NCBI RefSeq assembly: GCF_017875465.1 | Contig: NZ_JAGGMQ010000001.1 | Span: 806,001-870,000 of the forward strand | Source: Winslowiella toletana | GTDB taxonomy: Bacteria > Pseudomonadota > Gammaproteobacteria > Enterobacterales > Enterobacteriaceae | DNA length: 64,000 nt | Direction: 5' to 3' | In this document: in pieces, positions 23,300-46,989 of the stretch | Layout: each line of letters begins with the position of its first letter | How positions within the stretch are numbered: position 1 is the stretch's first letter | Program-made: the position numbers and the translations under genes | Notes under the pieces: generated by a model | Seen by the model: only the letters and a program-made list of their open reading frames with translations | What the model was told of the DNA's origin: nothing | Database searches by the model: none

Positions 23300-23332
23300 A
23301 TTATTTCCACTTATTTATTTTGTGGAAATAAT
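23300..23332. repeat. Long A+T-rich hairpin after the secretion operon
   Basis: ATTATTTCCAC (23300-23310) pairs perfectly with GTGGAAATAAT (23322-23332) around an 11-base loop. It lies 30 bases beyond the stop of the leftward HlyD-like gene and may mark its transcript end, although no T run follows on the minus strand. Confidence 0.55.
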
Positions 23333-23362
23333 CGACGTCTTAATTATTGCTGGCGCTATTTC

Positions 23363-26682: not shown

Positions 26683-26716
26683 TACTGCCTTTTATTCGTG
26701 GTACGCAGGTGAACCA

Positions 26717-28069: not shown

Positions 28070-28071
28070 GA

Positions 28072-28158
28072 TTAACACCACAGCTTTAGCGTTTGTTGTC
28101 GGCTGTTAACGGTATAGCCCGTCTCAGCAAAAATGGGGAGCAGCGAGGTTTGCATCAT
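28072..28158 (-). CDS. Putative 28-codon leader frame coupled to the TolC-like gene
   Basis: Minus-strand ATGATG at 28158, with AAGGAA eight bases upstream, opens a frame MMQTSLLPIFAETGY... that stops at 28072, two bases before the TolC-like start codon. The downstream gene lacks its own ribosome site, which points to a leader whose translation brings ribosomes to it. It could also be chance. Confidence 0.4.
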   Translation of the reverse strand: MMQTSLLPIFAETGYTVNSRQQTLKLWC

Positions 28159-28587
28159 GCCTGGTTCCTTATACAGCGATAAGTCCATTACGGACGGTTA
28201 GCAAAGTATCAAACGCATCCATTCGATAAATTAAATTAACTTTTCAGCGTTGTTTCCCTGTCCCGGGAAATTTTCACTACCATTAAATTAATAGAACAGT
28301 TTGGCCAATTTTTCCTGTCCAAACAGCCTGTTATTTTGATATCACCCGCACTCCGGCAGCACAGAGTCGCCCGCCACAGGCTAAAAACGGGCGCTTTTCC
28401 GCTAAAATTCAGCCAGTACCGTTTAAATCAGGCGTATTAACCAGTTTTAGCGGGTTACTGTTTATTAACTGCCACGCTTTTTTTTTCATATGGCGCAAAC
28501 AGTTAAACCAGATTCATCAAATTTACCGTTGGTGAGAAAAAAAAGGGCCACGCCTGGCGTGACCCTGTTAAGTACTGCATTAATCCA
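28159..28587. other. Region between the adhesin gene and the secretion genes
   Basis: About 430 bases, A+T rich around 28200-28330, without a credible gene of normal size. It holds a terminator right behind the adhesin stop, and by inference a separate promoter for the secretion genes, which I could not place. Confidence 0.5.
28536..28566 (-). terminator. Terminator directly after the giant adhesin gene
   Basis: AGGGCCACGCC (28544-28554) pairs with GGCGTGACCCT (28556-28566, one G-T pair). On the minus strand the stem is followed by a run of eight T (28536-28543). It begins 22 bases past the adhesin stop codon. Confidence 0.85.
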
Positions 28588-31500
28588 TCAGACGACATGC
28601 ACCTGCAGATTATGTTGCACCAGCACATCACCAAGGCTGTTATCGCTGGTCAGGGCTGAATTGTGATAAACATCAAATACCTGACCATCGACGGTACGCT
28701 GACCTACCGTCGCCCATACGCCGCCATCGGTATTGCTCAGGGTCACCTGGCTGCCATCCGCACCTTTAATCAGCAGATCCTCATTTTGCGTATCCGTCAG
28801 TTTCAACGCTTCATTCAGATCCAGCTTGACGCTGTTGGTGCCCGATGCGCCGAGATCCAGCACTTCGATATGCTCCACTTTCAGACCCAGCGCCGTCAGA
28901 TCGAGCGCCATATGCTCACCGCCCAGCACCAGCGTATCGGTACCCGCCCCGCCATCGATATGCTCGAAGTTAAGGTTATTAACGGTGACGGTATCATCAC
29001 CCAGACTACCGGTGACCGTTGCCCCCTCATGGGTGGTGCCATCCGCCAGCGTAATCACCACGCCGCCGATGGTATAACTGCTGTCATCAGCCGCCGTGCT
29101 GGCCGTTTCATCTGTAGTGGCAGTGGTGCTTTCACTACTGGTGGCCGTTGCCGCGCTGGTTGCGCTATCCGCATCGGTGGTTAGCGTCGACTCAACCGTG
29201 GTGGTAGCCGAGGTTTCGGTGCTGCTGCTCGCTTTAGCGGTTTCCTCATGGCTGGCCGCGGTGGCGGCTAACGCATGTGTATCGACCGAGGTCGCATCAT
29301 CGGCCGCCACCGAGAACAGCGCCAGCGATGAGGTTGCCGCTGTGGCAACCGGCAACAATGAACCCAGCAACAGGGTGGTAGTGGTCGATGCCGGGTTACC
29401 CGCGACGTCAACTGCCGTCACCGTGACAATCGAATTCAGATTCAGCGCGGTTAACAGTCCGCCAGCGAATTTAACGCTGTAGCGGCCCAGCGCATCAGTG
29501 GTGGCCTGCATGGTTGAACCATTCAGGGTCACATTAACGCGCGTACCCTGCGCCAGATTCAGTGTGCCGCCGGAAACTGTCAGACCATTCAGCAGCACAT
29601 TAACCAGCGCAAGCACCGGATCGACGCCGACAACCGGCAGATCGTGGGTTTTCGCGGTAAAGCTGCTGCCCGCCACCGATGTGTTACCTACCGGGTCGGT
29701 CAGCGTCACCAGTACCGTGTGGCTGCCATCAGAGATGCCGCGCAGTGTCGAAGATGGCACGTTGACGCTCCAGGTGCCATTTGCCAGCACCGTGGTGGTG
29801 TACACCGTGCCCGCCACATCAACCGATACCCGGCTGCCGACCGCATTGGTCGACGTCCCGGTGATGGTTTCAGTGGCAGAGGCTTCTGACAGATTCAGAT
29901 AGCCGTCGGTGAACAGCACGCCCAGCGCGACCGATGGCAGACTATGCGTAATCACACTGGCGCTGCTGCTGCCACTGCCGCTGTTACCTGCGGCATTGGT
30001 CACCGTAGCCGTGACGTTTTGCGTACCATCAGCCAGCGCAATCAGGCTGGCGGACGGCACACTGACGCTCCAGGTACCATTCGCAGCGACCGTCCCCGTC
30101 AGAGTTAACGAGCTGCCGACTTTCACCGTCACCGTCGACCCTTCAGCATTGGTGGTGGTACCGGTAATGGTCTGCGCACTCTGCGCATCCGTAGCATTCA
30201 GCAGGCCATCGCCAAATACCGCGCTGATACTGACCGTTGGCGGCGTATTGGTAATCACACTGACGGAACCACTCTTCGTCGCCACATTGCCGTAAGCATC
30301 GGTGGCCGAAGCATTTACCGTCAGATTACCGTTGCTCAGTAACGCGAGATCCGCTTTAGACACGCTGACTGACCAGGCGCCACCGCTGGCCACCAGGGCG
30401 CTGTAGCTTTTGCCGCCAAGCGTCACGCTGACCGTTGAACCAACCGCCAGATTACTGCTGCTGCCGCTGATGGTTTGCGTCGAGTTCAGATCGGCGGCGC
30501 TCAGTACGCCATCGCCAAATACGGTATTCAGCGTCAGGGTCGGTGGATTACTGATACCCACCTGTACGCCAGCACTGACACCGGTGGTATTGCCTACCGC
30601 GTCAGTCACGGAAACACCGACGGTCAGGTTACCGTTCAGCAGCGTACCGAGAATATCGGGCGCTACCGTCGCACTAAATTTACCGTCGCTACCGACCTGG
30701 GCGGTGACGGTGGAATTACCGATATTGATTCTTACTGTCGAGCCAGCCGCATTGGTCACCGTACCGGTAATCGTCTGAGTTACCAGTGATTCCACCAGAT
30801 TCAGAATGCCGTCGCCAAACAGCGGATTAAGCGTAATCACCGGCAGATTATGAATACCGACGATGGCGCCGGCCGTCGCGCTACCGGTATTTCCGGCGCT
30901 ATCGGTTACCGCCACACCCACCGTCAGGTTGCCATCCAGTAATCCCTGCAGAATCGCTGGCGTCAGCGCCAGGCTGAAGCTATTACCGGTGGTGGCGGTA
31001 ACAAACTGTTGCCCACCGATGGTCACCACTACCCGGGAACCGGCTTCCGCACCGCTGACCGTACCGGTGATGGTCTGGGTTAACAGCGCATCAGCCGCAT
31101 TCAGCAGTCCGTCGCCAAACAGTGTGGCAAGGTTCACCACCGGACGGATAACGTCAACCACCAGTCCCTGTGAAGCGGACGCGGTATTGCCCGCTGCATC
31201 GGTCACGCTGGCGGAGATGGTTAAATTGCCGCTGGTTAAAGTGCCGAGAATATCCGGCGAGACGGTAGCGCTAAAGGCGCCATTGGCACCGACCTCCGCC
31301 GTCACCGTATTGCCGCCAATGCCCAGCGTAATGGTGCTGCCCGCAGCCACATTATTCACCACACCGCTAATAATCTGACCGGTGGCAAGGTCGGCAATAT
31401 TCAGAATGCCATCGCCAAAGATCGGGCTGAGGGTAATAGAAGGCTGCGCGGTAAAGATGCCGACATCAACCGAGGTCGAGGTGGTATTACCGGCCGGATC

Positions 31501-34500
31501 CACCACTTTCACCCCCAGCGCGAGGGTGCCATCGGTCAGTGCGCCGAGATCCAGCGGCGGAATTTTGATACTCCATTCACCCAGCGCATTGACCGTCGCC
31601 GCGTAGGATTTACTGCCCAGGGTTACGGTGACCGTTGAGCCGGTCGCCGCCGTCACTACCCCTTTCACGGTCTGTTCCACGGTGGATTCGACAATATTCA
31701 GCAGATTATCACCGCCAAACAGGCCGGTCAGCGCGCCGATCTGCGGCAGGTTATCAACAATCGCGGTAAAGGTTTTATCGACAGTACTGGTGTTGCCGTA
31801 GGCATCGGTTAGCGTCAGCTGGAGTGCGATATTGCCATCGTTAAACACATCCAGCAGCGTTGGCGGTACAACAATCGCCCACTTACCATCCTGCCCCACC
31901 GCTGCGGTAAGCGTGGTGCCGCCAATGGTCAGCGCCACAGTAGCGCCGACCCCGGCAGAGGTGGTGATGCCGCTGATCGTTTGCGCGACTGCGGTATCGG
32001 CGGCATTAAGGAAGCCGTCGCCGAACAGCGTATCCACCACCAGATTCAGCGCGCTGTTAACCACTTTATTAACGGTTAACGTCGCGTCCGTCTGGTTACC
32101 GGCCGCATCACTGACCCGCACGCCAAATACCAGCGCGCCGTCTGTCAGTGAGCCAAGCACTTGCGGTGTCAGGTCAATCGAGAAAGTGCCATTGGCATTG
32201 ACCACTGCGGTGGCAATTGGCGCGCCGTCACCAAGATAGAGGCCGATGGTCTGCCCTTCGGCGCCAGTCGCACGGCCGGTTAAAGTCTGAGTTAACAGAA
32301 TATCGGCCGCATTCAGCACGTTATCGCCAAGCAATGCATCCACCTGCAGCAGCGGTGCGCCAGTATCGACAGTAATCGCATGGGTCGCGGTGCCGGGATT
32401 GCCCGCCGCATCACTCAGGGTGGCGCTGATGGTCTGCGCCCCCTGTCCCAGCGCCTGCAAATCAGCCGCCGGTACTGCAGCCGACCAGCTACCGTTGGCC
32501 TGCACCACGGCAGTGTAGGTTTTGCCGTTTAAAGTGACACTCACCGTGCGCCCTGCTTCACTCAGCGAGGCGGTGCCATTAATGGTCTGCGTGGCGGTGG
32601 CTTCACTGCCATTCAGCACATTATCGCCGGTGAAAGCGCCAATGGTCAGCACTGGCGGCACGCGATCCACCACCACGGTTGAGTTGCTGGTGGCGGAGCC
32701 ATCCAGCCCGCTGGCGGTAACACTGACCACCGCATTGCCGTCAATAAAGCTGGTATTTGGCACGCTGATGCTCCAGCTGCCATCATCAGTGGAAACCACG
32801 GCTGTACCGGCCAGCGCACCATTGATGGTTACGGTGACGGTGCCGCCCGCGGTACCGATATTGCCGTAGGTCCCTGCCAGCGTCACATTACCGGTGCCAT
32901 CGGCCACATTGATGATATTGTCGCCGCCAACTGGCGTCAGCGTAACCAGCGGTGCTGGCGGCGGCGTCAGATCGACCGTCACCGTCGCGCTGGAATTACC
33001 GACGTTACCGGCGATATCACTGACCGAGGCGCTGATGGTGCCGCTGGTGGTACCCAGCTGCAGCATCGCCGCCGGCGTAACATTCACCGTCCAGCTGCCA
33101 TTCGCCTGCACCACTCCGCTCAGGGTTGCAGTGCCAATGGTTACCGTCACTACCGAGCCGATGCTCGCGCCGGTCGTGGTGCCGCCCAGGGTCTGAGTGG
33201 TTAAACTTTCCAGATAAGTCAGCGCGTTATCGCCGGTAAATGGCGTAATGGTGATGGTCGGTACTTGCGTATCCACCGTAAAGCTGCCATTAATCGCGCC
33301 GACGTTACCCGCGCTGTCGGTAGCCTGCACCGCCACGCTGGCCGTACCCTGGCCCAGCGCAGAGAGCACGCCGCTGCCGACATTCAGCGTCCAGTTACCG
33401 TTATTGTCAACGGTAGCGCCGGTATAGGTGGTACCGGCAATGGTGACACTGACGGACTGACCCGCGCCGGTGACGCCGGTTTTACCACTTAACACGCCTC
33501 CTGCCAGCGCTTCGGCGGCGTTAAGGTAACCGTCGGTAAACGGCAGATTCAGCGTCGGCACCGGCGCCGTCAGTGAGGCGGTAAAGTTCAGGCTCTCGCT
33601 GTTGGTATTACCGGCACTGTCGGTGACCGTCACGTTGATAGTGTGGGTTCCGTTGGTTAATCCACTTAATGCCCCGGCCGGAATATTCACCGACCAGTTA
33701 CCACTGGCATCGACGGTGCCGGTATAGCTGATACCGTTAACATCGATTTTCAGCTGTACGCCCTGATTAAGTCCATCCACCCCGGTTCTGCCGGTTAAGG
33801 TCACCGCCGCTCCCGCTTCAGTGATATTCAGTACGCCATCAATAAACGGCGTATTGATCACCGGTTCCGGCAGGGTCAGCGCAGTGGTGACATTCAGCGT
33901 CTCCACATCACTGTTGCCTGCGGCGTCTCTGGCGGTCACGGTAATGCTGTGTGTACCATTCGCCAGTGTCGCCAGCTGGGTTGGCGTAAGCGACAACGAC
34001 CAGTTGCCATTAGCATCAACCGTGGCGTTGAGCGGATTATCACCATTAAAGCCGCTAATCAGTACGCTGACGCTTTGACCCGCGCCCACCACGCCGGTTT
34101 TACCGCTAATCAGCTGACTGACTGCGGCCTCGTCAATATTCAGTGCGCCATCGCCAAATGGCAGATTGATGGTCGCATTGGGCAGACTATTTACCGCTAC
34201 TGTCAGCGAACCACTGGTGTTGCCGACATTACCAGCCGCATCGGTTACCACCACGCTGATCGGCAGATTGCCATCCTGCAGGCTCTGCAACAGACCGCTG
34301 CTCAGCGGCAAATTCCACGCGCCGGTCGTGGCATCCACGGTGGCGTCATAGGTGGTGCCGTTTAGCGTAACCTTCACGGTTTGCGCACCGGTGATACCGG
34401 TGGTGCCGGTCAGTGCTCCATTAACTGCCGCTTCCGCTGCATTCAGGAAACCATCAACAAACGGCGTCGCCAGCGTTGGCTGCGGCAGACCGGTGATAAT

Positions 34501-37500
34501 GGCGTTGAAGCCGAGCGTCGTACTGTCGCTGTTCTGCGCGCGGTCAGTTACGGTGACGTCAATGGTATGGGTGCCGTTGCCCAGCGCCGCCAGCTGCGTT
34601 GGCGTCAGGGTGGCGCTCCAGTTGCCATTTTGATCGACGGTGGTGGTAAAGGTGGTGTTATCAATTTTCAGCGTCACCGTCTGGCCGCTACCCGTGATCC
34701 CGGTAGTGCCGCTGATCAGCTGATTAACGCCTGCTTCCGCCGCATTCAGTAAGCCGTCAACAAATGGCGTCAGAATGGTGGCATCCGGCAAGGTATTGAT
34801 CAGCACATCGGCGCTGACCGTGGCGGTCGCCGGGTTACCGGCAGTGTCAACCGCACTGACTTCAACCTGTAGCTGGCCATCGCTCAGTCCCGCCAGACTG
34901 CCCGCCGGGATATTGACACTCCAGACGTTATTCGCAGTGACCGTGCCATTAAAGGTCAGTCCGCCAATGGTGACCACCACCGCAGTACCCACCGCAAGAT
35001 TGCTGGATGTGCCAGTGATGGTCTGTGCCACCAGCGATTCCGCCGCGTTTAACAGGCCATCGACAAACGGAGTGGTAATATTCAGCACTGGCAGCGCATT
35101 AATCAGCACATCAAGATTGACCACGTCGGTGCTGGTATTGCCCGCACGGTCAGTAACCGATACGCCAACCCCCAGCTCGCCATCCTGCAATAACAGCAGG
35201 TCGCCGGATGGAATGGTCAGGCTCCAGGCGCCATTAACGTCCGCCGTGGCGCTGTACTCTTTATTGTTCAGCGTGACCGTGACGGTTAATCCCGCTTCGG
35301 TCTGGCCGCTGACCAGCAGTCCGGCCAGCGCTTCCGCCAGATTCAGCACATCACCCGCATCCAGCGTGACGCTCAGCAACGGCTCGACCGTATCAACGGT
35401 AAAGTTGTGGCTGGCGTTAGCCGGGTTACCGGCGACATCGGCCGAACTGGCGGTGACGGTATTGCTGCCCTGATCCAGTGCGCGCACATCGGCAGCCGGC
35501 ACAGTGGTGCTCCAGTTGCCGTTAGCATCCACCGTGGCGTTGTATGTTTTACCATCCAGCGTCACCAGCACGTTGCCGCCAGCGGGTATACGCTGACTGG
35601 TGCCGCTGATAATCAGATTACTGTTGGATTCCTGGGCATTGATAATGTCATCGCCGCTGACCGGATTAAAGTTCAGCGTTGGCTGGTCCGCCGCCGCCGC
35701 AATCACCGTAACGTTATGGGTATTGCTGGCCGGATTGCCTGCGGTGTCGGTGGCTGAGGCGGTAATGGTTTGCGCACCGTCGGCCAGCGCGCCTGCATCG
35801 GCGGCCGGTACATTGGTGCTCCAGCCGCCGCTGGCGTCGACCGTCGCGGTATAGGTTTTGCCATTCAGCACCACGCTCACCGTACGACCCGCTTCCAGAT
35901 TGGTGCTGGTGCCCGAGATCGCCAGCACCTGACCAGCCTCAGCCTGATTAATATAGTTATCGCCAGACACCGCGCTGATGGTCAGCGTTGGCAAAGTTGC
36001 CGGGCTGGCATCAATGGTGATGTTCTGCGTCACGCTGGTGCTGTTCAGCGCTTTATCACTGAGTTCGGCGCTAACCGGATAGCTGCCATCCGCCAGCCCC
36101 TGCAACGCACCCGCTGGCAGGTTGACGCTCCAGCTGCCGTCACTCTGCACCAGCGTCTGATAGCTGACGCCATTAAAGGTCACGGTCACCTGCTGACCCG
36201 CCTCAGTTACCGAGGCAGTACCGCTGACTGCCACTACCTGCTGGTACTCGGCGGCATTAATAATATTATCGCCAGCAATGGTGCTGATAGTCAGCGTCGG
36301 CGCCTGGAAATCCACACTGGCGGTGCTGTCGATCACCCCCTGATTGCCGGACCCATCGGTTACCGTCACCACAATCGGCAGATTGCCGCTGCTCAGATCC
36401 TGTAGCGTGGCTGGCTGCAACACCAGTGACCAGTTACCGCTGGCATCTACCTGCGCGTTGTAATCAGTGCCGCCAATATTCACCACCACCGATTGTCCGG
36501 CGCCGCTAGCGCCGGTGGTGCCAGTCAGCGTCTGCGGCTGCTGAGCTTCAGCACTGTTCAGATAGCCATCAGTAAATGGCGTATTGAAGGTTGGCACCAG
36601 CGCGGCGGTTTCCACCGTCACCGCACTGCTGCTGCTGGTCGGATTGCCCGCCGCATCAGTGACCGTCGCAGTCAGGGTATAACTGCCATTACTGATCCCG
36701 GCCAGCGCGCCAGCAGGCAGATCCAGTGACCAGACACCGCTGGCATTAACGGTGGCGGTATAGCTTTGTCCATTAAGGGTAATGGTAACAATCTGCCCCG
36801 CCTGTGCAGTGGTGGTGCCGGAGATGGCGATCGCCGCCACCGATTCCGCTGCATTGACCCGGCCATCACCGGCAATGGTATCGATGGTTAAGGTTGGTGG
36901 AATAAGATCGACACTAAACGGCGCGCTGACCTGATCCTGGTTACCCGCAGCGTCAGTGACCGTCACCACCATACTGCCTGCGCCCAGTGTCTGTAGCACC
37001 GTCGGTGACAGACTGACCGTCCAGTTGCCATCGCTGTCTACCAGCCCGTTGTAGTCAACACCGTTAATATTGACGCTGACCTGCTGACCGTCCCCCGCTT
37101 TGCCGGTGCTGCCACGCAGGGTCTGCGTGCTGCCCGCTTCCGCCGCATTCAGGATGCTGTCGCCAAATGGCGGCAGAATGGTGGCATCTGGCAGTTCATT
37201 AATCTGCACATTCAGGGTGGCATCACTGGATACCGGATTACCCGCCGCATCGGTAGCGCTGACGTTGACGGTCGTCGGGCCATCCGTCAGACCTGCCAGC
37301 GCGGCCGGTGGGATCGCCACGCTCCAGACGCCATTGGCGCCCACTTCAGCGGTAAAGGTCTGATTATTAAACTCGATGGTTACCGTACTGCCGGTCGCCA
37401 CATTTTGTGAAGTCCCGCTGATCAGCAGATCCTGCCCGGCTTCCGTGGCATTCAGATAGCCATCGCCGCTGACTGGATCGACGGCCAGTCCGGACAGCGC

Positions 37501-40500
37501 ATTGTTTACGCTAAAGTCGAGAGTGTTGCTGATACTGTTACCTGCAGCATCACTGACTGCCACTACCAGGCTGTTGTCGCCATTAGCCAGATCCTGTAAA
37601 GCGGACGCCGGAATCGCTATGCTCCACGCGCCGCTCGGCTGCACAATCGCGGTATAGATAGCGCCATCAAGAGTAATGGTCACCGTCTGACCCGCTTCAA
37701 CGTTAGTAGTAACCCCCGAGAGAGTCTGCGCCGTTTGCTGCTCGGCGCCATCCACCACATTATTCCCGGCAAAGGCGTCAAAGCTGATGGTCGGCAACGA
37801 GGCCGCGTCGGCTTTCACCGTAAACGAGGCTGGCTGCTGCGTGCTGTTGCCCGCGCTGTCGGTAGCGGTCACCGTCAGATCGTAACTGCCGTTAGTCAGA
37901 CCGCTCAGGGCATCAGCCGGGATATTAAGCGTCCAGCTACCGTTGGTGTCTACCGTAGTGGTATATGGCGTGCCAGCAAAGCTGACGACAATAGTCGCGC
38001 CATTTTCACCGGTGCCGCTGACTGCCAGCGGCTGGCCCAGTTCGGTGGCATTAACCACGCCATCACCGGACAGCACCCCCACCAGCAGAGCTGGCGGCAG
38101 CGTATCCACCAGCACGCTGCCGTTGCCGGTCGCGGTATTACCCGCTACATCGCCGACGGTAACGGTAAAGCTGGTGGTGCCCTGTTGCAGCTCCTGCAAC
38201 GCCGCAGCAGGAATGGAGATGGTCCAGCTACCGTCGCTGGCTACGGTTCCGTTGTAAGTCGTACCGTCAAAGTTAACGCTAACCGTCTGACCCTCACCGG
38301 CAACGCCGGTGCTGCCGGTCAGCGTGCCGTTCGCCGCGATATCATCGGCATTCAGCGAGCCATCACCAAATGATGGATTAATGGTTACCGTCGGCAGGGT
38401 ATCTGCCAGCACCGTTACGCTGCTGGTGCTGGTAACCGGATTACCGGCCGCATCGTTTACCGTTGCGCTGATCGCTAACGGACCGTCGGCCACCAGGCTC
38501 AGCGCACCGGCTGGCACCGTTGCTGTCCAGCTGCCATCGGCGTTCACCGTTGCGTTATAATCAACCCCATTCACCGTGACGACCACGATGCTGCCAGCAG
38601 TGACATTGGTGCTCTGGCCGCTGATGCTTAGCGCTGCCCCTTGTTCACTGGCATTCAGATAACCATCGCTGACTGGCGCAATCGCCAGGCTGCTGCCGCT
38701 GGTGTTAATGGTGTAGTTGTCGCTAACGCTGGTGCTGTTACCGGCGGCGTTTGTGACGCTGACCGCCAGCGTCTGGCTGCCATCGTTTAAGCCAGCCATT
38801 GCCCCCGCCGGGATGGTGACATTCCACGCGCCCCCCGCCAGCACCAGACCGCTATAGCTGACGCCATTAAGCGTCACGGTTACCGTTTGCCCGGCCTCTG
38901 CGTTGGTGGTGCCACTCAGAATCTGATCGACCGCGCGCTCTGCGCCATCAACAATGCCATTACCGGCAAAGGTATTAATCGCTACCGTCAGTGTTGGCGC
39001 AGTGGTATCCAGCGTCAGGCTGCTTTGTACCGTGGTGATATTGCCTGCGCTGTCGCGGGTGGTGACGCTAAGCGGATTAGCCCCTTCGCTTAACCCTGCC
39101 AGATCGACGGCAGGCACTTCCAGCGACCACTGGCCATTTACGCCAACTGTCGCCTGATAGCTTTTACCGTTAAGGCTGACGGTGATGTTATCGCCAGATT
39201 CTCCGCTACCGTTAAGCAGCAGCGGCTGTCCCTGCTCTGCGCTGCTGAGAATGCCATCACCGGAAGGCGGATTCAGCGTCAGCGCCGGAGGGGTAATATC
39301 TACCGGCAGGCTGACCTGCTGGGTGGTGCTGTTACCTGCGGCATCGCTGACGGTGATGCGAACCGGATAAACGCCATCCGTCAGGGTTGCCAGATCGGCC
39401 GCCGGAACATTGACAGTCCACTGGCCATCCGCCCCCACGGTGGCGCTATAGCTGTTGCCATTCAGGATCACACTGACGCTGTCACCGGCGACGCCGGTAC
39501 CATTGATCGCCAGCGGTTGTGCCTGTTCGCTGGCATTCAGCGTGCCGTCACCGGCAATAACCGCGACGGTAAAGGCTGGCGCACTGGTATCCAGCGTGAC
39601 CGGCGTCAGCACGGTGGCGCTGTTGCCATTCGCATCCGTGGCAGTGATGCTGATATCGTATTTGCCGTCGGTCAGCGCCTGCAATGCGCTGGCCGGAACC
39701 GTGGCGCTCCAGCTGCCACTGGCCGCCACAATCGCCGGATAAGCGATGCCATTCAGGGTCACCACCACCGTGCTACCCGCTTCGGTGCTGCCGCTGATCG
39801 CCAGCGGCAAGCCCTGTTCAGTGGCGTTAATTATGCCGTCGCCAGAGACCGGGTTAAGCGCAATATCCGGCGGCGTGCTGTCCACCACCACCGGCGTGGT
39901 TAAGGTATCGCTGTTACCAGCCACATCGCTGACCACCACTACCACCACATTGGCGTTGCCGTCAGGCAGATTTTGCAGCGTGGCGGGCGGGATAGTGACG
40001 GTCCAGTTACCCTGGCCATCGACCAGCGCCGCATACTGCACACCGCCGACGGTGACAAACACTTGCTGCCCATCGGCAATCACGCCGGTGGTGCCGCTCA
40101 GCGTCTGCGGATTCTGCGCTTCATCCGCACTGAGCACGCCATCACCAAACGGCGTATCCAGCGTCGGCTGCGGCAGCGTATTGATCGCCACATTTAGCGT
40201 ATTTTCGCTGGTCACCTGGTTGTTGTTGCTGTCAGTGCTGGTAGCGGTAACCGTCAGCGGGCCATCCGGCAGCACCTGCAAATCCGCGGTCGGGACGATG
40301 ATGCTCCATTTGCCGTCTGCATCAACGGTGCCGGTGTACGCAATGTTATTTAACGTAACCGTTACGGTCGTGCCCTCGGCAACATTATTTGAACTGCCAC
40401 TGATGGTAAGATCGGATTGCGCCTCAATGGCGTTGAGGTAATCATCGCCACTGATAATGCCAATCGCCAGTGCGCTGAAGCTGTTATCGACGGTAAAGGT

Positions 40501-43500
40501 TTCACTGCCGGTGGCAGGATTGCCGGCGAGGTCACTGACGCTGACATCAAAGGTTTGCGTACTGTTTTGCAGACCGGCAAAAGCGCTGGCCGGGATATTG
40601 ACACTCCAGGCGCCACCGGCTTTTACCTCGCCGGTATACGGCACACCGTTAAGGAGCACAGTTACCAGCTGTCCGGCCTGCACATTAGTGGTGGTACCGG
40701 TCAGAATCTGACTTTCGCCCTGCTCCGCGCCGTTCAGCTGGCCATCACCGGTAAACGGATCGACACTGATGGTCGGCAGATTAGCCGGATCGGCGGCGAC
40801 GATTAACGGGCTGGTGCTGGTATTGGTGTTACCCACCGCATCCACTACCGTCACGCTGACGGTATAAGGACCATCCGGCAGCAACGCCAGCACCGCAGGC
40901 GGGATTTGCACCGACCAGTTACCGTCACTGTTTACCACCGCCGGATAATCGACATTATTCAGCGTCACCGTGACATTATCGCCAGCGTCGCCGGTGCCGT
41001 TAATCGTCAGGTTTTCGTCGCGCTCCTGATTATTGAGGTAACCATCGGATACCGGCTCCACGGTTAACGCTGGTGTAGCGGTATCAAAGGTCAGATTACT
41101 GCTGGTGCTGCTGCTGTTGCCGCTGGCGTTAGTGGCGGTCACGGTAAGCGGATAAGTGCCATCGGCGATAGCCCCCAGCGCGGAAACCGGAACACTGACG
41201 CTCCACTGGTTATCACTGCCAACGGTGGCGGTGTAGTTCTCACCATTAAGGGTGAGGCTAATTATATCCCCGGCGCTGCCACTACCACTGATCAGCAGCG
41301 GCTGCCCCTGTTCGCTGGCATTTACCGTGCCGTCAACCGCAATCGGATTCAGTTCCAGCGCTGGCGCGGCGGTATCAACCAGCAGGTTGGTGCTCTGCGT
41401 GCTGGTATTGCCCGCCGGATCGCGCGCCTCCACCGTCAGCGGGTTATTGCCGCCGGGCAGGTTCGTCAGGTCCGCCGCCGGAATTGTCACCTCCCACTGA
41501 CCGTTCTGGCCAACAACCACACTATATTCGACCTGATTCAGGGTGACGGTAATCGTATCGCCCGCCGTGCCGTTGCCACCGACAATTAACGGCTGCGTCT
41601 GTTCGCTGGCATTCAGTATGCCATCAACCGCAACCGGATTAAGTGTGACGACCGGCGCGCTGGTATCAATTACCAGCCCGGTTTGCTGCGAGGCGCTGTT
41701 GCCTGCTGGATCGGTGACGGTGACCGCCACGGTGTAGCTGCTGCCGTTATTCAGCGCCGCCAGATCGCCGGTCGGGACATTGACCGACCAGTTGTTATTG
41801 CCATCGACAATGGCGCTGTAACTTTTGCCATTCAGCGTAACCTGCACGCTGTCGCCCGGCGTACCGGTGCCGTTCAGTTCCAGCGGCACGCCCTGCTCAA
41901 TACTGTTAAGCATGCCATCACCGGCGACTGGCGCGAGAGTAAAGGCCGGGGCGCTGGTACTGAGAATAATGCTGCTAAGTTGCGTGGTGCTATTGCCAGC
42001 GCTATCACTGGCGGTGACGCTGACCGGGTAGGTGCCATCAATCAGCCCCTGCAATACCGCAGACGGCACATTGACCGTCCAGTAGCCGCTGGCATCAATA
42101 GTCGCCGGATAGTCGACGCCATCAAGGGTAACGATGACTGTCGATCCTGCTTCCGCATGACCTTCAATCAGCAGCGGCTGATTCTGTTCGCTGCCATTAA
42201 CCCGGCCATCTTCGGAAATTGGCTCAATATCCAGCGCTGGCGGCAGCGTATCCACCCGCACCGTGGTGGTTGAGGTATTGCTGTTACCCGCCGCATCGCT
42301 GACCGCCACCACGATGGTAGTCGGGCCTTCCGGCAGGTTCTGCAAGGCGGTCGACGGCACCAGCAGGCTCCAGCTGCCATCTGTCGCCACCTGCACGGGG
42401 TAATCGACGCCGCCAATGGTCACCGTCACCGTCTGTCCGTCACCGGTCGCGCCGGTGTTGCCGGTCAGCGTCTGATCGCTCCTCGACTCATCGCCGCTCA
42501 GGATCGCGTCAGTAAACGGTGTATCGATATTCGCCTGCGGCAGATCGTTAATCGCCACATTTAATGTCCCGTCCGCGCTGATCGTGGCGCCGTTTGCCCC
42601 CGGGGTGGTAGCGGTAATGGTTAACGGACCATCGGGCAGATTAGCCAGGACAGTGGACGGAACCGTGGTGCTCCAGCTGCCATTGGCCTGCACAATCGCC
42701 GTATAGGTGGTGGTGCCAATCACAAAGCTGACGGTACTGCCCGCCGCCACATTGCTTGAGGTGCCGCTGACGGTCAGATCGCTTTCCGCCTCCAGCGCAT
42801 TGAGATAGCCGTCGCCACTCAGGGGATCAAGCGCAATCGCGCCGACGGTGTTATCCACCACAAAACTGCCCGTGTCGCTGGCATTGTTGCCCGCTGCATC
42901 GTCGACGCTGACGGTATAGTTCTGCGTGCCGTTAGTCAGCCCCTCCAGCGCGCTGGCCGGGATACTGACTGACCAGGCACCGCTGGCCTGCACCACGCCG
43001 GTGTAGCTCTCGCCACCCAGCGTAACGGTAACCACTTGTCCGTGCTGTACATTGGTGGTGGTACCGGTAAGGAACTGTTCGGTTTGCTGCTCTGCGCCAT
43101 CCAGCACCCCGTCGCCAGTCAGCGGATCGACCGTGAGGGTCGGCTGATTAGCCGGGCTGGCAATAACCGTCAGCGGGCTGTTAACCGTAGTGGCATTACC
43201 CGCACCGTCGGTGGTGGTGATCGCCACGTTATAGCTGCCATCGCCCAGCGTATTTGCCGGGACGGTGACTGACCACTTGCCGTCACTGTCCACCGTAGCA
43301 GGATAATCAACCTCATCAAGGGTGACGACGATATTCGCGCCCGCTTCACCGCTGCCGGCAATAATTAACGGTTCGGCCTGCTCCTGCTGGTTAAGATAAC
43401 CATCACCGGAAATTGGCGTAGTCAGCGCCAGCGGAGGCGACTGGGTATCCACCACCAGCGGCGCGCTGGTGGCGGTGGTATTGCCCGCCGCGTCGCTGGC

Positions 43501-46500
43501 GACAATACCAACGCTGTAGTTACCATCGGCGATATTCGCCAGATCGGCCGCCGGAATGGTTACCGTCCACTGACCGCCGCTGGTGACCGTGGCCGGGTAA
43601 TCCACCCCATTCAGCGTAACCACAATGCTGGTATCGGCTTCGCCGCTGCCCACAATCACTAACGGCTGCCCCTGCTCCAGCGCATTCAGATAGCCGTTAC
43701 CGGAAATCGGATCGTCGAGTCCCAGCGCTGGCGCCACCGTATCCACCAACAGCGGCGTAGTCGAGGTGCTGGTATTTCCTGCTGCATCAGTAACCGCCAC
43801 CACCAGCGGATTGTTGCTGCCCTGCGGCAGATCGCCCAGATCCGTAGCCGGGATAGTCACTGACCAGTTGCCGTCGCTGCCCACCAGCGCGGTGTAATTA
43901 TTGCCGCCGAGGGTAACCTGCACCGTCTGACCGGGCGCATTCACCCCGGTATTACCGCTGATAGTCTGATCGGTACTGACTTCGTTGCCGTTCAGCGCGC
44001 CGTCACCGCCAAATGGCGGATCGATAGTGGCCGCAGGCTGACTGGCGATCACCACATTCAGCGTGCCGTCCGCCGTAATAGTGGCGCCGTTAGCGCCCGG
44101 CGTGGTGGCGGTAATGGTTAACGGACCATCGGGCAGATTAGCCAGAACGGCAGACGGAACCGTGGTGCTCCAGCTGCCATCAGCCTGCACAATCGCGGTA
44201 TAGGTTGTAGCGCCAATCACAAAGCTGACCACACTGCCCGCCGCCACATTGCCTGAAGTACCGCTAACGGTCAGATCGCTGGTCGCTTCCTGCGCATTGA
44301 GATAGCCGTCGCCACTCAGTGGATCAAGCGCAATCGCGGCGAGAGTGGTATCGACGTCAAAACTGCCATCACTGGTGCTGGTGTTGCCTGCCGCATCGTT
44401 AACGCTGACGGTGAAGTTCTGCGTGCCGTTGTTCAGCCCCGCCAGCGCGCTGGCGGGAACGCTGACCGACCAGCTGCCATCCGACTCGACAATGCCGGTA
44501 TAGCTGGTATTGCCCAGCGTGACGGTAATGGTCTGCCCCTGCGGCGCATCAGTGGTACCGGTAATAAACTGCTCAGTCTGCTGTTCAGCGCCATCGAGTA
44601 TGCCGTCGCCGGCAAACGGATTAAGGGTGATAGTGGGGAAATTAGCCGGATCGGCAATGACCGTCAGCGGGCTGTTAACCGTGGTGGTATTGCCTGCGCC
44701 GTCGGTTGCGGTGATCGCCACCGTATAGCTGCCGTCAGCAAGGGTATTGGCAGGAACAGTGACCGACCACTGACCCGTGCTGTCCACCGTTGCCGGGTAG
44801 TTAACCCCCGCAAGGGTAACCACAATGCTGGCGTTGGCTTCTCCGCTGCCGCCAATAATTAACGGCTGAGCCTGCTCCTGCTGGTTAAGATAGCCGTCAC
44901 CAGAGATCGGTACACCTGGGGTCAGCGCCGGTGGCAAGGTATCCACCACCAGTGGCGTCGTCGAGGTGCTGGTATTGCCCGCCGGATCGGTAACTACCAC
45001 TATGATCGGGTTAGCGCCGCCCTGCGGCAGGTTACCCAGGTCTTGCGCCGGAATGGTGACGGTCCAGCTGCCGTCATTAGCCACCGGCGCGTTGTAATCG
45101 TTGCCGCCAATGGTCACCACTACCGTCTGGCCGGGGCCGGTCACACCGGTATTGCCACCGATGGTCTGATCGTTACTGGCCTCATCGCCATTCAGCGTGC
45201 CGTCGCCGCCAAATGGCGGATCGATGGTGGCGTCCGGTGAGCTATTGATCAGCACATTGAGCTGACCACTGTTGCTGATCAGATCGCCATTGCTGTCGGT
45301 GACGCTGGCGCTGACCGTCAGTACACCATCAGGCAGTGCGCTCAGCGCCGGGGAAGGAATGGTGGCGCTCCAGCTGCCATCGGCATTGACGATGGCGGTA
45401 TAATTATTGCCGTTGAAACTGACAGTCACGATGCTGCCCGCAGTGACACCGGTAGTGGTGCCGCTAATCACTAACCCGGCGGCCACTTCCCCGGCGCCGA
45501 GATAGCCATCATCGCTAATCGGCTCCAGCGCAATACTGCCTGCAGTATCCGGCTGAACCACCAGAGCACTGCTGTCACTGGCGCTATTGCCTGCAGCATT
45601 GCTGACGCTGGCGCTGATAGTGGTGGTTCCCGCCGTCAGCGCTTCCAGCGCGGCTGACGGCACCAGTACACTCCAGCTGCCGTTAGCCTGCACCAGCGTG
45701 CTGTAAGTCTGACCACCCAGCGTAATCGTAACGGTTCGGCCTGCCTCGACATTGGTCGTCGTCCCGCTAAGCAACTGATCGATTTGCTTCTCTGCGCCAT
45801 CAAGCACATTGTCGCCAGCAAAATCATTCAGGGTAAGTGTGGGTTGCTCATTATCACCACCGGTCACCGTAATCGCCTGGCTGTCGCTGGCGGTGGCGCC
45901 CGCGCTGTTGCTGACGCTGGCATTGATGGTGGTGGCGCCTTCGGCCAGCGCCTGCAAGGCGGTGGAAGGTACGTTGACGCTCCAGCTGCCATTGGCCGCC
46001 ACGGTGGTGGTATAGGTCACACCACCAAGCGTAATGGTGACCGTGCGTCCGGCTTCAACATTGGTCGTGGTGCCGGAAATCGCCTGGCTGCTGCCTTTTT
46101 CATCGGCATCAAGAATATTATCACCGGCAAAGGCGCCGATAGTGATGGTGGGAACCTCCACTACCGGACCGGTGACGGTAATCGCCTGGGTGTCGCTGGC
46201 GGCAGTACCGGCAGCATCGGTAACGCTGACAGCAATGGTGGTGCTGCCGTTGGCCAGCGCCTGTAACGCGGCCGGAGGAACCGCGACGCTCCAGCTGCCA
46301 TCGGCCGCTACCGTAGTGGTGTAGGTCACGCCACCGAGCGTAATGGTTACCGTACGGCCCGCTTCAACATTGGTGGTAGTACCGGAAATCGTCTGGCTGC
46401 TGCCTTTTTCACCGGCATCAAGAATATTGTCACCAGCAAAGGGATTGATGGTAATCGTTGGCTGAACCGGTGTTGGCGTTGTGTCGCCCCCACCTCCGCC

Positions 46501-46989
46501 ACCACCACCTCCGCCACCCGCTGCGGCGACTCCCAGCCCAACCAGGCCCAGCGCGCCGATACCGGCGGCGGTGATTACACCACCGGAAATTTCGTTATCG
46601 GCCAACAACAGCGGTTCAAGGTTACCCAGTGATTCGTACGTTGGGGTAATCGCCATCGCGGTCGTCGCATCAGTCATCTCGGTGGTGACCGGGAACAGCG
46701 CATGTTCAGGCGGGTTGACGCCGTCATCGAACACCAGCTCACTGTGTGAACCATCGACGTCATCGAAGAAGAACTGCTGGTAACGCACAACGCTTCCATC
46801 GCGCATGTGCAGGATCAGATCGTTTCCCTGCCGCTCAAACTCCACGACCATCGCACGAGTGCCGTTTATCTTCACCACGCTAGGCTCAGTCAGCATTACC
46901 GTATGGTTAGCGCCGCCAGTCGCCTGGGAGATCAGCGTTCCGTTATCGCGTGAGATAATATCGACGCGGCCTTCATTGAGCTGTGCCAT
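28588..46989 (-). CDS. Giant repetitive type I-secreted surface adhesin (BapA/SiiE/LapA-like, 6133 residues)
   Basis: Domains in order: a BapA-type prefix domain (about 1-130, VDIISRDNG ... VVRYQQFFFDD); a hydrophobic helix (about 136-157) ending VAAAG and 11 Gly (158-168); about 57 tandem Ig-like repeats of about 100 residues (178-5877), each starting like FAGDNILDAGE and containing GxWSVxVP; a Ser/Thr/Ala-rich linker (about 5887-5970); and a C-terminal domain with one RTX-like GGAGTDTLVLGG and an end LGDVLVQHNLQVHVV that should carry the uncleaved secretion signal. There is no cysteine in the parts I checked. The N-terminal part probably plugs the TolC-like channel and holds the fibre on the cell. 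AAGGGG lies nine bases before the ATG. The secretion genes follow downstream. The likely role is biofilm or host/plant attachment. Confidence 0.93.
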   Translation of the reverse strand: MAQLNEGRVDIISRDNGTLISQATGGANHTVMLTEPSVVKINGTRAMVVEFERQGNDLILHMRDGSVVRYQQFFFDDVDGSHSELVFDDGVNPPEHALFPVTTEMTDATTAMAITPTYESLGNLEPLLLADNEISGGVITAAGIGALGLVGLGVAAAGGGGGGGGGGGDTTPTPVQPTITINPFAGDNILDAGEKGSSQTISGTTTNVEAGRTVTITLGGVTYTTTVAADGSWSVAVPPAALQALANGSTTIAVSVTDAAGTAASDTQAITVTGPVVEVPTITIGAFAGDNILDADEKGSSQAISGTTTNVEAGRTVTITLGGVTYTTTVAANGSWSVNVPSTALQALAEGATTINASVSNSAGATASDSQAITVTGGDNEQPTLTLNDFAGDNVLDGAEKQIDQLLSGTTTNVEAGRTVTITLGGQTYSTLVQANGSWSVLVPSAALEALTAGTTTISASVSNAAGNSASDSSALVVQPDTAGSIALEPISDDGYLGAGEVAAGLVISGTTTGVTAGSIVTVSFNGNNYTAIVNADGSWSATIPSPALSALPDGVLTVSASVTDSNGDLISNSGQLNVLINSSPDATIDPPFGGDGTLNGDEASNDQTIGGNTGVTGPGQTVVVTIGGNDYNAPVANDGSWTVTIPAQDLGNLPQGGANPIIVVVTDPAGNTSTSTTPLVVDTLPPALTPGVPISGDGYLNQQEQAQPLIIGGSGEANASIVVTLAGVNYPATVDSTGQWSVTVPANTLADGSYTVAITATDGAGNTTTVNSPLTVIADPANFPTITLNPFAGDGILDGAEQQTEQFITGTTDAPQGQTITVTLGNTSYTGIVESDGSWSVSVPASALAGLNNGTQNFTVSVNDAAGNTSTSDGSFDVDTTLAAIALDPLSGDGYLNAQEATSDLTVSGTSGNVAAGSVVSFVIGATTYTAIVQADGSWSTTVPSAVLANLPDGPLTITATTPGANGATITADGTLNVVIASQPAATIDPPFGGDGALNGNEVSTDQTISGNTGVNAPGQTVQVTLGGNNYTALVGSDGNWSVTIPATDLGDLPQGSNNPLVVAVTDAAGNTSTSTTPLLVDTVAPALGLDDPISGNGYLNALEQGQPLVIVGSGEADTSIVVTLNGVDYPATVTSGGQWTVTIPAADLANIADGNYSVGIVASDAAGNTTATSAPLVVDTQSPPLALTTPISGDGYLNQQEQAEPLIIAGSGEAGANIVVTLDEVDYPATVDSDGKWSVTVPANTLGDGSYNVAITTTDGAGNATTVNSPLTVIASPANQPTLTVDPLTGDGVLDGAEQQTEQFLTGTTTNVQHGQVVTVTLGGESYTGVVQASGAWSVSIPASALEGLTNGTQNYTVSVDDAAGNNASDTGSFVVDNTVGAIALDPLSGDGYLNALEAESDLTVSGTSSNVAAGSTVSFVIGTTTYTAIVQANGSWSTTVPSTVLANLPDGPLTITATTPGANGATISADGTLNVAINDLPQANIDTPFTDAILSGDESRSDQTLTGNTGATGDGQTVTVTIGGVDYPVQVATDGSWSLLVPSTALQNLPEGPTTIVVAVSDAAGNSNTSTTTVRVDTLPPALDIEPISEDGRVNGSEQNQPLLIEGHAEAGSTVIVTLDGVDYPATIDASGYWTVNVPSAVLQGLIDGTYPVSVTASDSAGNSTTQLSSIILSTSAPAFTLAPVAGDGMLNSIEQGVPLELNGTGTPGDSVQVTLNGKSYSAIVDGNNNWSVNVPTGDLAALNNGSSYTVAVTVTDPAGNSASQQTGLVIDTSAPVVTLNPVAVDGILNASEQTQPLIVGGNGTAGDTITVTLNQVEYSVVVGQNGQWEVTIPAADLTNLPGGNNPLTVEARDPAGNTSTQSTNLLVDTAAPALELNPIAVDGTVNASEQGQPLLISGSGSAGDIISLTLNGENYTATVGSDNQWSVSVPVSALGAIADGTYPLTVTATNASGNSSSTSSNLTFDTATPALTVEPVSDGYLNNQERDENLTINGTGDAGDNVTVTLNNVDYPAVVNSDGNWSVQIPPAVLALLPDGPYTVSVTVVDAVGNTNTSTSPLIVAADPANLPTISVDPFTGDGQLNGAEQGESQILTGTTTNVQAGQLVTVLLNGVPYTGEVKAGGAWSVNIPASAFAGLQNSTQTFDVSVSDLAGNPATGSETFTVDNSFSALAIGIISGDDYLNAIEAQSDLTISGSSNNVAEGTTVTVTLNNIAYTGTVDADGKWSIIVPTADLQVLPDGPLTVTATSTDSNNNQVTSENTLNVAINTLPQPTLDTPFGDGVLSADEAQNPQTLSGTTGVIADGQQVFVTVGGVQYAALVDGQGNWTVTIPPATLQNLPDGNANVVVVVVSDVAGNSDTLTTPVVVDSTPPDIALNPVSGDGIINATEQGLPLAISGSTEAGSTVVVTLNGIAYPAIVAASGSWSATVPASALQALTDGKYDISITATDANGNSATVLTPVTLDTSAPAFTVAVIAGDGTLNASEQAQPLAINGTGVAGDSVSVILNGNSYSATVGADGQWTVNVPAADLATLTDGVYPVRITVSDAAGNSTTQQVSLPVDITPPALTLNPPSGDGILSSAEQGQPLLLNGSGESGDNITVSLNGKSYQATVGVNGQWSLEVPAVDLAGLSEGANPLSVTTRDSAGNITTVQSSLTLDTTAPTLTVAINTFAGNGIVDGAERAVDQILSGTTNAEAGQTVTVTLNGVSYSGLVLAGGAWNVTIPAGAMAGLNDGSQTLAVSVTNAAGNSTSVSDNYTINTSGSSLAIAPVSDGYLNASEQGAALSISGQSTNVTAGSIVVVTVNGVDYNATVNADGSWTATVPAGALSLVADGPLAISATVNDAAGNPVTSTSSVTVLADTLPTVTINPSFGDGSLNADDIAANGTLTGSTGVAGEGQTVSVNFDGTTYNGTVASDGSWTISIPAAALQELQQGTTSFTVTVGDVAGNTATGNGSVLVDTLPPALLVGVLSGDGVVNATELGQPLAVSGTGENGATIVVSFAGTPYTTTVDTNGSWTLNIPADALSGLTNGSYDLTVTATDSAGNSTQQPASFTVKADAASLPTISFDAFAGNNVVDGAEQQTAQTLSGVTTNVEAGQTVTITLDGAIYTAIVQPSGAWSIAIPASALQDLANGDNSLVVAVSDAAGNSISNTLDFSVNNALSGLAVDPVSGDGYLNATEAGQDLLISGTSQNVATGSTVTIEFNNQTFTAEVGANGVWSVAIPPAALAGLTDGPTTVNVSATDAAGNPVSSDATLNVQINELPDATILPPFGDSILNAAEAGSTQTLRGSTGKAGDGQQVSVNINGVDYNGLVDSDGNWTVSLSPTVLQTLGAGSMVVTVTDAAGNQDQVSAPFSVDLIPPTLTIDTIAGDGRVNAAESVAAIAISGTTTAQAGQIVTITLNGQSYTATVNASGVWSLDLPAGALAGISNGSYTLTATVTDAAGNPTSSSSAVTVETAALVPTFNTPFTDGYLNSAEAQQPQTLTGTTGASGAGQSVVVNIGGTDYNAQVDASGNWSLVLQPATLQDLSSGNLPIVVTVTDGSGNQGVIDSTASVDFQAPTLTISTIAGDNIINAAEYQQVVAVSGTASVTEAGQQVTVTFNGVSYQTLVQSDGSWSVNLPAGALQGLADGSYPVSAELSDKALNSTSVTQNITIDASPATLPTLTISAVSGDNYINQAEAGQVLAISGTSTNLEAGRTVSVVLNGKTYTATVDASGGWSTNVPAADAGALADGAQTITASATDTAGNPASNTHNVTVIAAAADQPTLNFNPVSGDDIINAQESNSNLIISGTSQRIPAGGNVLVTLDGKTYNATVDANGNWSTTVPAADVRALDQGSNTVTASSADVAGNPANASHNFTVDTVEPLLSVTLDAGDVLNLAEALAGLLVSGQTEAGLTVTVTLNNKEYSATADVNGAWSLTIPSGDLLLLQDGELGVGVSVTDRAGNTSTDVVNLDVLINALPVLNITTPFVDGLLNAAESLVAQTITGTSSNLAVGTAVVVTIGGLTFNGTVTANNVWSVNIPAGSLAGLSDGQLQVEVSAVDTAGNPATATVSADVLINTLPDATILTPFVDGLLNAAEAGVNQLISGTTGITGSGQTVTLKIDNTTFTTTVDQNGNWSATLTPTQLAALGNGTHTIDVTVTDRAQNSDSTTLGFNAIITGLPQPTLATPFVDGFLNAAEAAVNGALTGTTGITGAQTVKVTLNGTTYDATVDATTGAWNLPLSSGLLQSLQDGNLPISVVVTDAAGNVGNTSGSLTVAVNSLPNATINLPFGDGALNIDEAAVSQLISGKTGVVGAGQSVSVLISGFNGDNPLNATVDANGNWSLSLTPTQLATLANGTHSITVTARDAAGNSDVETLNVTTALTLPEPVINTPFIDGVLNITEAGAAVTLTGRTGVDGLNQGVQLKIDVNGISYTGTVDASGNWSVNIPAGALSGLTNGTHTINVTVTDSAGNTNSESLNFTASLTAPVPTLNLPFTDGYLNAAEALAGGVLSGKTGVTGAGQSVSVTIAGTTYTGATVDNNGNWTLNVGSGVLSALGQGTASVAVQATDSAGNVGAINGSFTVDTQVPTITITPFTGDNALTYLESLTTQTLGGTTTGASIGSVVTVTIGTATLSGVVQANGSWTVNVTPAAMLQLGTTSGTISASVSDIAGNVGNSSATVTVDLTPPPAPLVTLTPVGGDNIINVADGTGNVTLAGTYGNIGTAGGTVTVTINGALAGTAVVSTDDGSWSISVPNTSFIDGNAVVSVTASGLDGSATSNSTVVVDRVPPVLTIGAFTGDNVLNGSEATATQTINGTASLSEAGRTVSVTLNGKTYTAVVQANGSWSAAVPAADLQALGQGAQTISATLSDAAGNPGTATHAITVDTGAPLLQVDALLGDNVLNAADILLTQTLTGRATGAEGQTIGLYLGDGAPIATAVVNANGTFSIDLTPQVLGSLTDGALVFGVRVSDAAGNQTDATLTVNKVVNSALNLVVDTLFGDGFLNAADTAVAQTISGITTSAGVGATVALTIGGTTLTAAVGQDGKWAIVVPPTLLDVFNDGNIALQLTLTDAYGNTSTVDKTFTAIVDNLPQIGALTGLFGGDNLLNIVESTVEQTVKGVVTAATGSTVTVTLGSKSYAATVNALGEWSIKIPPLDLGALTDGTLALGVKVVDPAGNTTSTSVDVGIFTAQPSITLSPIFGDGILNIADLATGQIISGVVNNVAAGSTITLGIGGNTVTAEVGANGAFSATVSPDILGTLTSGNLTISASVTDAAGNTASASQGLVVDVIRPVVNLATLFGDGLLNAADALLTQTITGTVSGAEAGSRVVVTIGGQQFVTATTGNSFSLALTPAILQGLLDGNLTVGVAVTDSAGNTGSATAGAIVGIHNLPVITLNPLFGDGILNLVESLVTQTITGTVTNAAGSTVRINIGNSTVTAQVGSDGKFSATVAPDILGTLLNGNLTVGVSVTDAVGNTTGVSAGVQVGISNPPTLTLNTVFGDGVLSAADLNSTQTISGSSSNLAVGSTVSVTLGGKSYSALVASGGAWSVSVSKADLALLSNGNLTVNASATDAYGNVATKSGSVSVITNTPPTVSISAVFGDGLLNATDAQSAQTITGTTTNAEGSTVTVKVGSSLTLTGTVAANGTWSVSVPSASLIALADGTQNVTATVTNAAGNSGSGSSSASVITHSLPSVALGVLFTDGYLNLSEASATETITGTSTNAVGSRVSVDVAGTVYTTTVLANGTWSVNVPSSTLRGISDGSHTVLVTLTDPVGNTSVAGSSFTAKTHDLPVVGVDPVLALVNVLLNGLTVSGGTLNLAQGTRVNVTLNGSTMQATTDALGRYSVKFAGGLLTALNLNSIVTVTAVDVAGNPASTTTTLLLGSLLPVATAATSSLALFSVAADDATSVDTHALAATAASHEETAKASSSTETSATTTVESTLTTDADSATSAATATSSESTTATTDETASTAADDSSYTIGGVVITLADGTTHEGATVTGSLGDDTVTVNNLNFEHIDGGAGTDTLVLGGEHMALDLTALGLKVEHIEVLDLGASGTNSVKLDLNEALKLTDTQNEDLLIKGADGSQVTLSNTDGGVWATVGQRTVDGQVFDVYHNSALTSDNSLGDVLVQHNLQVHVV
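29359..46458 (-). repeat. About 57 tandem coding repeats (about 300 bp each) in the adhesin
   Basis: Counted by eye from the recurrent motif pair GD(G/N)xLNxxE...(I/L)SG. The spacing averages 100 codons. Repeats 3-35 show a higher-order order A-B-C-D. Repeats 1-3 are nearly identical in the segment SGTTTNVEAGRTVTITLGG. The last unit (about 29.4-29.65 kb) is degenerate. Confidence 0.85.

Follow-up and report, generated by a model that had tools for sequence, protein, structure and literature searches.

A BapA-family giant adhesin with 57 Ig-like repeats beside its probable three-gene exporter in Winslowiella toletana

Introduction

Are giant bacterial adhesins selected for their length, and how do those of the BapA type stay bound to the cell without a LapG switch? 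A natural test of both questions is offered by one locus of Winslowiella toletana, which lies in a stretch of 64,000 nucleotides (assembly GCF_017875465.1, contig NZ_JAGGMQ010000001.1, positions 806,001 to 870,000), here called the window. A single reverse-strand frame in it, 28588..46989, encodes 6133 residues, and a preliminary description drawn from the sequence had taken the product to be a BapA/LapA-type adhesin, unusual in size and built largely of immunoglobulin (Ig)-like repeats. The adhesin belongs to the BapA family as a well-formed and conserved member, of an ordinary kind within its group. What gives it value is comparison: related genomes have the same locus, often with a similar repeat number and with different membrane-proximal repeats. 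The genus name Winslowiella was not found in the adhesin and biofilm literature among the matches listed.

The adhesin and its repeats

The frame opens with ATG and runs through its 6133 codons without an internal stop, and the architecture first proposed for it, with a prefix domain, a spacer of 11 glycines, a long repeat array and a Ser/Thr-rich linker after the last repeat, is present in full (coordinates in Table 1). At the N-terminus both PF22783 and NF033677 exceed their cut-offs, and AlphaFold2 (AF2) predicts an all-beta domain for aa 1-135 (mean predicted local distance difference test score, pLDDT, 81.5; predicted template modelling score, pTM, 0.77).

A profile built from the adhesin itself finds 57 repeats, one further sub-threshold match being left out of the count, at a spacing of 97-104 residues (median 100). 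A whole-genome search with NF033510 (Ca_tandemer) likewise gives 57 matches, all inside this frame and 56 of them above cut-off, the exception being the degenerate last repeat; the early estimate of about 57 units of about 100 residues was thus accurate. The repeats are of the Ca_tandemer/Big_13 type. Across the 56 full ones two Asp positions are conserved, in 53 and in 48 repeats, along with a Glu that 48 repeats have and the remaining 8 replace by Asp. These acidic residues would bind calcium in this adhesin, and Asp residues of type I calcium sites are reported for BapA (PMC5466336). Profile and model of aa 1-278, with matches that run through the first repeat, find the adhesin extenders 4p99, 5irb, 4kdv and 6xi3 and SiiE 2yn3, while the best PDB sequence match to aa 1-1000 is 4p99, RII repeats of MpIBP (E 2.1e-36). 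The array is uninterrupted, the largest gap value being 4, with no split-domain ligand-binding Pfam family listed, and VCBS domains, as in Salmonella BapA, are not listed by Pfam scans that jointly span the chain.

The C-terminal region, proposed early on as a signal for a type I secretion system (T1SS), is conserved, both in the 29 C-termini aligned among the matches listed and in the last 25 residues of 18 orthologues. It holds one stretch resembling repeats-in-toxin (RTX) sequences, a weak PF00353 match of 11.3 bits against a cut-off of 23.

Might so repetitive a frame be an assembly artefact or a chance open reading frame? Both are ruled out by the longest exact direct repeat within the gene, 38 bp, by the 57 curated-model matches and by the orthologues. 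Collapse in assembly is unlikely because of that short exact repeat, a mean pairwise identity among repeat units of 38.6% and a genome of 5.30 Mb in 2 contigs, with the window on the one of 5.16 Mb.

Relatives and size

A BapA_N match is present in 26 of 37 genomes of the genus set. In the family set the count is 117 of 295 genomes, spread over 61 of 154 genera, and the rows listed for it include open frames as long as 11324 aa. The 26 comprise the W. toletana genome itself, which has a single match, 18 genomes from which an orthologue was fetched, one (G006) with a different adhesin and six left out. A second locus in G005 was also kept out of the orthologue set, being a different adhesin. 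A close exporter gene (86-99%) is listed for 17 of the 18 genomes, G060 lying outside that comparison.

Repeat counts in the 18 orthologues are 58 (five), 57 (two), 56 (seven), 55 (one), 47 (two) and 39 (one), so that 15 have 55-58 repeats, at 5973-6267 aa. The size of the adhesin is normal for its group, and the unusual size initially ascribed to it does not survive the comparison. A protein search with aa 1-170, against database entries clustered at 90% identity and restricted to candidates 0.55-1.75 times as long as the query, gave 89 proteins including the query. These have 3511-6270 aa and 30-58 repeats, a range whose lower end may be clipped by the length limit and whose upper end is unaffected by it; 46 of the 89 hold 53-58 repeats and none is above 58.

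A probable dedicated secretion locus

The adhesin gene is followed on the same strand by genes for a TolC-type channel, an ATP-binding cassette (ABC) permease/ATPase and an HlyD-type adaptor, the last two overlapping by 4 bases, and then by ompC; on the other flank are a major facilitator superfamily (MFS) gene and rcsD. Judged by its genes and their order, the locus is a bapABCD-type type I secretion operon. Its ABC protein shares 99% identity with the one from Winslowiella arboricola, which, together with the relatives found, makes a place in Erwiniaceae very likely. Among 74 relatives' loci, all found via the ABC protein, an HlyD match is present in 74, a TolC-type match in 66 and ompC (>50% identity) in 54.

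Could such a locus make a host-cell adhesin like SiiE, released rather than retained and used for contact with eukaryotes (insects or plants) instead of for biofilm? Many of the genera with the locus live on plants or insects, and the structure matches include repeats of SiiE. Size and repeat number are also near those described for SiiE, with its 53 bacterial Ig-like (BIg) domains (PMC5466336). Yet at the N-terminus the match is to the BapA prefix instead of to the beta-sheet and coiled-coil described for SiiE, and in the interval between adhesin and ompC only TolC-, ABC- and HlyD-type genes were identified, siiA and siiB not having been searched for elsewhere. We regard a SiiE-like role as unlikely.

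Evolution of the array

The repeats of the window were aligned to the 18 orthologous arrays with ad hoc gap costs and repeats >15 bits. All 57 are reciprocal best matches with those of G031, whose array is longer by one repeat, N-terminally placed, and 49 of 56 aligned repeats are so with G018; with the 16 more distant orthologues the number drops to 15-32. For these 16, repeats 47-57 have a median identity of 65.0% to the positional orthologue versus 48.0% to the best paralogue (the closest other repeat within the window's own protein), while for repeats 1-15 the values are 47.5% and 72.5%. Repeats 5-8 have later counterparts in 9 and 11-13; in the window the paired units are 73, 80, 67 and 87% alike, compared with 71, 76, 71 and 78% in G031 and 98, 100, 97 and 96% in G018. 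From these patterns it follows that membrane-proximal repeats have been duplicated or homogenised within lineages and distal repeats kept by position. In seven other homologues, picked by hand, identity to the best paralogue was taken by N-terminal, middle and C-terminal third. The tilt is clear in two (P0051, 58/48/46; P0069, 56/46/46). Four others show it slightly (54/53/50, 54/53/49, 56/52/50, 48/46/45), and P0082 not at all (46/47/43).

That distal repeats are conserved by position, which would be needless for a bare spacer, bears on the idea that the protein is mainly a passive acidic surface coat, serving charge, hydration or calcium storage with no specific adhesion. The chain, which has no cysteine, combines an isoelectric point of about 4.05 and 522 Asp and Glu against 79 Lys and Arg with no ligand-binding domain listed by the Pfam scans, which would suit such a coat; even so, we would give this idea little chance.

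Proximal turnover together with a repeat number often near 56 suggests selection on stalk length, and one study of Salmonella BapA takes its data to mean that attachment to one leaf type depends critically on length (PMC9927257). Selection on length is nonetheless to be worded with caution, because the homologues are related, the counts carry no phylogenetic correction and 3 of the 18 orthologues and 43 of the 89 homologues lie outside the common range. BapA is absent, by title, from the literature found on repeat number and concerted evolution of T1SS adhesins.

Possible retention without LapG

The LapG family is without a match in all 37 genus genomes, W. toletana included, in a search whose positive control matched in 1 of 14 control genomes (Caulobacter); the LapD search gave no match, and its control genomes were equally without one. 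It is very improbable that we are dealing with a LapA-type adhesin, with a retention module cleavable by LapG at a di-alanine motif of the TAAG kind and with cyclic di-GMP (c-di-GMP) control through LapD, in spite of the same overall plan, the LssB-family exporter and a TAAG string at aa 140-143 that recurs within aa 126-175 in 40 of the 89 homologues, as 49 of the 89 lack the string and the prefix matches the BapA family. Release governed by LapG is thus not supported by the sequences, and of the double label first given to the protein the BapA half stands, by its prefix, its Ca_tandemer/Big_13 repeats and its T1SS gene set, whereas the LapA half does not.

What then might retain a BapA-family adhesin? 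Directly after the prefix domain comes a hydrophobic segment. In all 89 homologues, query included, the best 19-residue stretch of aa 91-230 has a mean Kyte-Doolittle value of at least 1.48, and in 88 it starts at aa 131-144, the other being P0077, labelled partial, at aa 95. It is position and conservation that suggest a possible retention step here.

Proposed mechanism and its weighing

The explanation that we hold to be very probable, which would accommodate the gene, domains, operon order, conservation and lack of a LapG match that were observed directly, is that of a BapA-family adhesin with its own three-gene T1SS, a calcium-stiffened rod and LapG-free retention, used for attachment and cell-cell adhesion; secretion, retention, calcium binding and adhesion are inferred. 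The adhesin would be the substrate of the adjoining system, whose ABC/HlyD/TolC channel would read the conserved C-terminus and, T1SS export being C-terminus first, pass the chain out in that direction. Extracellular calcium would fold the 57 repeats and stiffen them to form a rod no shorter than 170-200 nm, if its domains measure 3.0-3.5 nm as reported for SiiE (PMC7493085). The N-terminus would leave last, and the rod is most likely held in the exporter or at the outer membrane, without recourse to LapG, by the folded prefix domain together with the hydrophobic segment and the glycine spacer next to it.

The rod may be used for surface attachment and cell-cell adhesion, by analogy with Salmonella BapA, whose expression is reported to give surface filaments and more biofilm (PMC5583245) and, when expressed or induced, more adhesion to lettuce leaves (PMC9927257). 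A role in biofilm or attachment, as originally put forward, is thereby suggested by the family, and the organism probably uses the adhesin for attachment to surfaces as well as to other cells. Salmonella BapA minus one BIg domain is described as adhering less to one leaf species, not lettuce (PMC9927257), and T1SS adhesin genes of enterohaemorrhagic Escherichia coli truncated to two Ig-like domains are reported to have partly restored adherence (PMC12758282).

Several points weigh against this explanation. The last 254 aa have no match above threshold to any curated T1SS C-terminal model, so that of the domain models named for checking in the preliminary description those for the BapA prefix and Ig-like repeats matched and those for the secretion signal did not, the signal being left with its conservation. 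The Pfam scans that jointly cover the whole chain list no separate ligand-binding domain. AF2 gives pLDDT <50 for aa 131-171. As a sharp signal the hydrophobic segment is weakened by a control drawn from other parts of these proteins: of 3175 stretches of 140 aa (median 1.14), 376 reach 1.48, the value of its weakest member, so that it is the fixed position, not the value, that sets it apart. Finally, deletion of bapABCD in Salmonella is reported to have left lettuce adhesion unchanged, with induced expression alone altering it (PMC9927257).

Going further, one may entertain, as a possibility that we rate distinctly below even, that two features act jointly: a ruler of about 56 domains, with proximal turnover and with distal repeats as a fixed functional tip, in which gains and losses of repeats would cancel to give a constant reach; and a LapG-free retention plug of prefix domain, hydrophobic segment and glycine spacer, which would be common to the BapA_N adhesins of Enterobacteriaceae.

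Features of the locus and expression signals

Table 1. Coordinates in the window of the adhesin gene, its parts and the adjoining genes
Feature	Position	Strand	Evidence and remarks
HlyD-type periplasmic adaptor gene, 389 aa	23363..24532	-	TIGR01843 E 6.9e-96, above cut-off
T1SS permease/ATPase gene, LssB type, 717 aa	24529..26682	-	TIGR03375 E 1.3e-254, above cut-off
TolC-type outer-membrane channel gene, 454 aa	26717..28081	-	TIGR01844 E 3.3e-88, above cut-off
Terminator-like hairpin, 10 pairs then T run	28544..28566	-	21 bases past adhesin stop
BapA-type giant adhesin gene	28588..46989	-	Open reading frame, 6133 aa, 606.6 kDa, ATG start
Conserved C-terminal region (from about aa 5970), presumed T1SS signal	28591..29082	-	Orthologue alignment
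Ser/Thr-rich linker (about aa 5878-5969)	29083..29358	-	Approximate boundaries
57 Ig-like repeats (aa 176-5877)	29359..46464	-	Self-built profile and NF033510
11-glycine spacer (aa 158-168)	46486..46518	-	Translation; Tandem Repeats Finder (TRF) match 46490-46518
Hydrophobic segment (aa 138-156), directly after prefix domain	46522..46578	-	Kyte-Doolittle
BapA prefix-like domain (aa 9-133)	46591..46965	-	PF22783 E 6.6e-19, NF033677 E 8.5e-24

A terminator-like hairpin lies between adhesin and exporter genes. In a survey of 59 loci (the window and 58 of the 74 relatives, the remaining 16 being without a recognisable end), 29, the window included, had within 120 bases of the last recognisable substrate stop a hairpin with a stability of at least -10 kcal/mol and a run of at least 4 T behind it, versus 0-3 in ten rounds of shuffling. 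The 30 loci without one include, among those with a recognised end, 8 of 9 in Rahnella and 7 of 7 in Pectobacterium, and also several in Erwinia. In L081 and L108, where the end of a second adhesin gene was recognised, it is this gene that has a strong hairpin after it, the first having none of comparable strength. The count of terminator-like sites in 22700-28700 is by itself uninformative, because 8 were found versus 6.5 (sd 2.3) in shuffles; the case for the hairpin is made by its position and its recurrence among relatives' loci. It may tune expression of adhesin versus exporter, probably giving much adhesin mRNA and less exporter mRNA. Near-matches to the RfaH ops element number 30 in the window versus 13.7 expected, with none between 46990 and 49045, and promoter scans gave 5 vs 5.2 and 4 vs 2.4 (sd 1.6).

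Between giant adhesin and exporter genes several relatives have a second, shorter BapA_N gene of 552-1975 aa (loci L035, L036, L038, L044, L081, L098 and L108; genomes G032, G015, G033, G019, G025 and G027), with a similar C-terminus in L081 and L108. Seven loci (L062, L063, L065, L068, L079, L080 and L106) have ABC and HlyD genes between ompC and rcsD matches and neither a TolC-type match nor a recognisable adhesin end, and their exporter is possibly an orphan. An exporter locus or close adhesin homologue is also found in L065, L095, P0008 and P0023, labelled Enterobacter ludwigii, Serratia marcescens or Pseudomonas; these records are either mislabelled or reflect transfer.

The adhesin gene has 59.5% G+C versus 53.5% in the rest of the window. 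Recent acquisition was considered and set aside: the exporter locus and ompC neighbour are common to 54 of the 74 relatives' loci, and the excess therefore more likely reflects the repeat sequence. Elsewhere the window has a tRNA-Pro(ggg) gene (4411-4487) and an L25 ribosomal protein leader (792-817).

Comparison with known systems

How does this adhesin stand among those already described? MpIBP (MpAFP) of Marinomonas, whose RII repeats gave the best PDB sequence match, is larger, with about 120 repeats and 1.5 MDa reported (PMC7493085), and its repeats are described as identical 104-residue copies (PMC4083281), whereas those here are diverse and no ligand domain is listed. LapA of Pseudomonas is likewise a large T1SS adhesin, serving attachment and biofilm (PMC3796261), and an exporter of LssB type is a shared trait; it is larger, at a described 888 kDa versus 606.6 kDa, and its release is described as controlled by LapG and LapD (PMC12077191), while here LapG is unmatched.

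SiiE of Salmonella is described as another giant T1SS substrate with a similar number of Ig-like repeats and with calcium sites, these being needed for normal secretion (595 kDa, 53 BIg; PMC5466336), while its N-terminus and accessory proteins, as described, are unlike this locus. The early statement that the present protein is larger than BapA and SiiE is borne out by the reported masses, over SiiE only barely.

Salmonella BapA, with bapABCD, shares the tandem Ig-like repeats and the dedicated exporter genes beside the adhesin, and is the source of the name of the prefix family matched here, a likeness by family model and not by direct sequence comparison. It is reported to have 28 BIg and 3 VCBS domains (PMC9927257) versus 57 repeats, and 386 kDa, and to be loosely cell-associated (PMC3796261); the locus here, unlike bapABCD, sits between ompC and rcsD. 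There are also the proteins of Erwinia, Pantoea and Mixta named 'Ig-like domain-containing protein' or 'hemagglutinin', with the same repeats and the same N-terminus, in which identity reaches 86% apart from the query itself, a BapA gene having been noted for Erwinia billingiae in its genome paper of 2010 (PMC2897811). They are proteins of the same kind, which differ in repeat number and in their membrane-proximal repeats.
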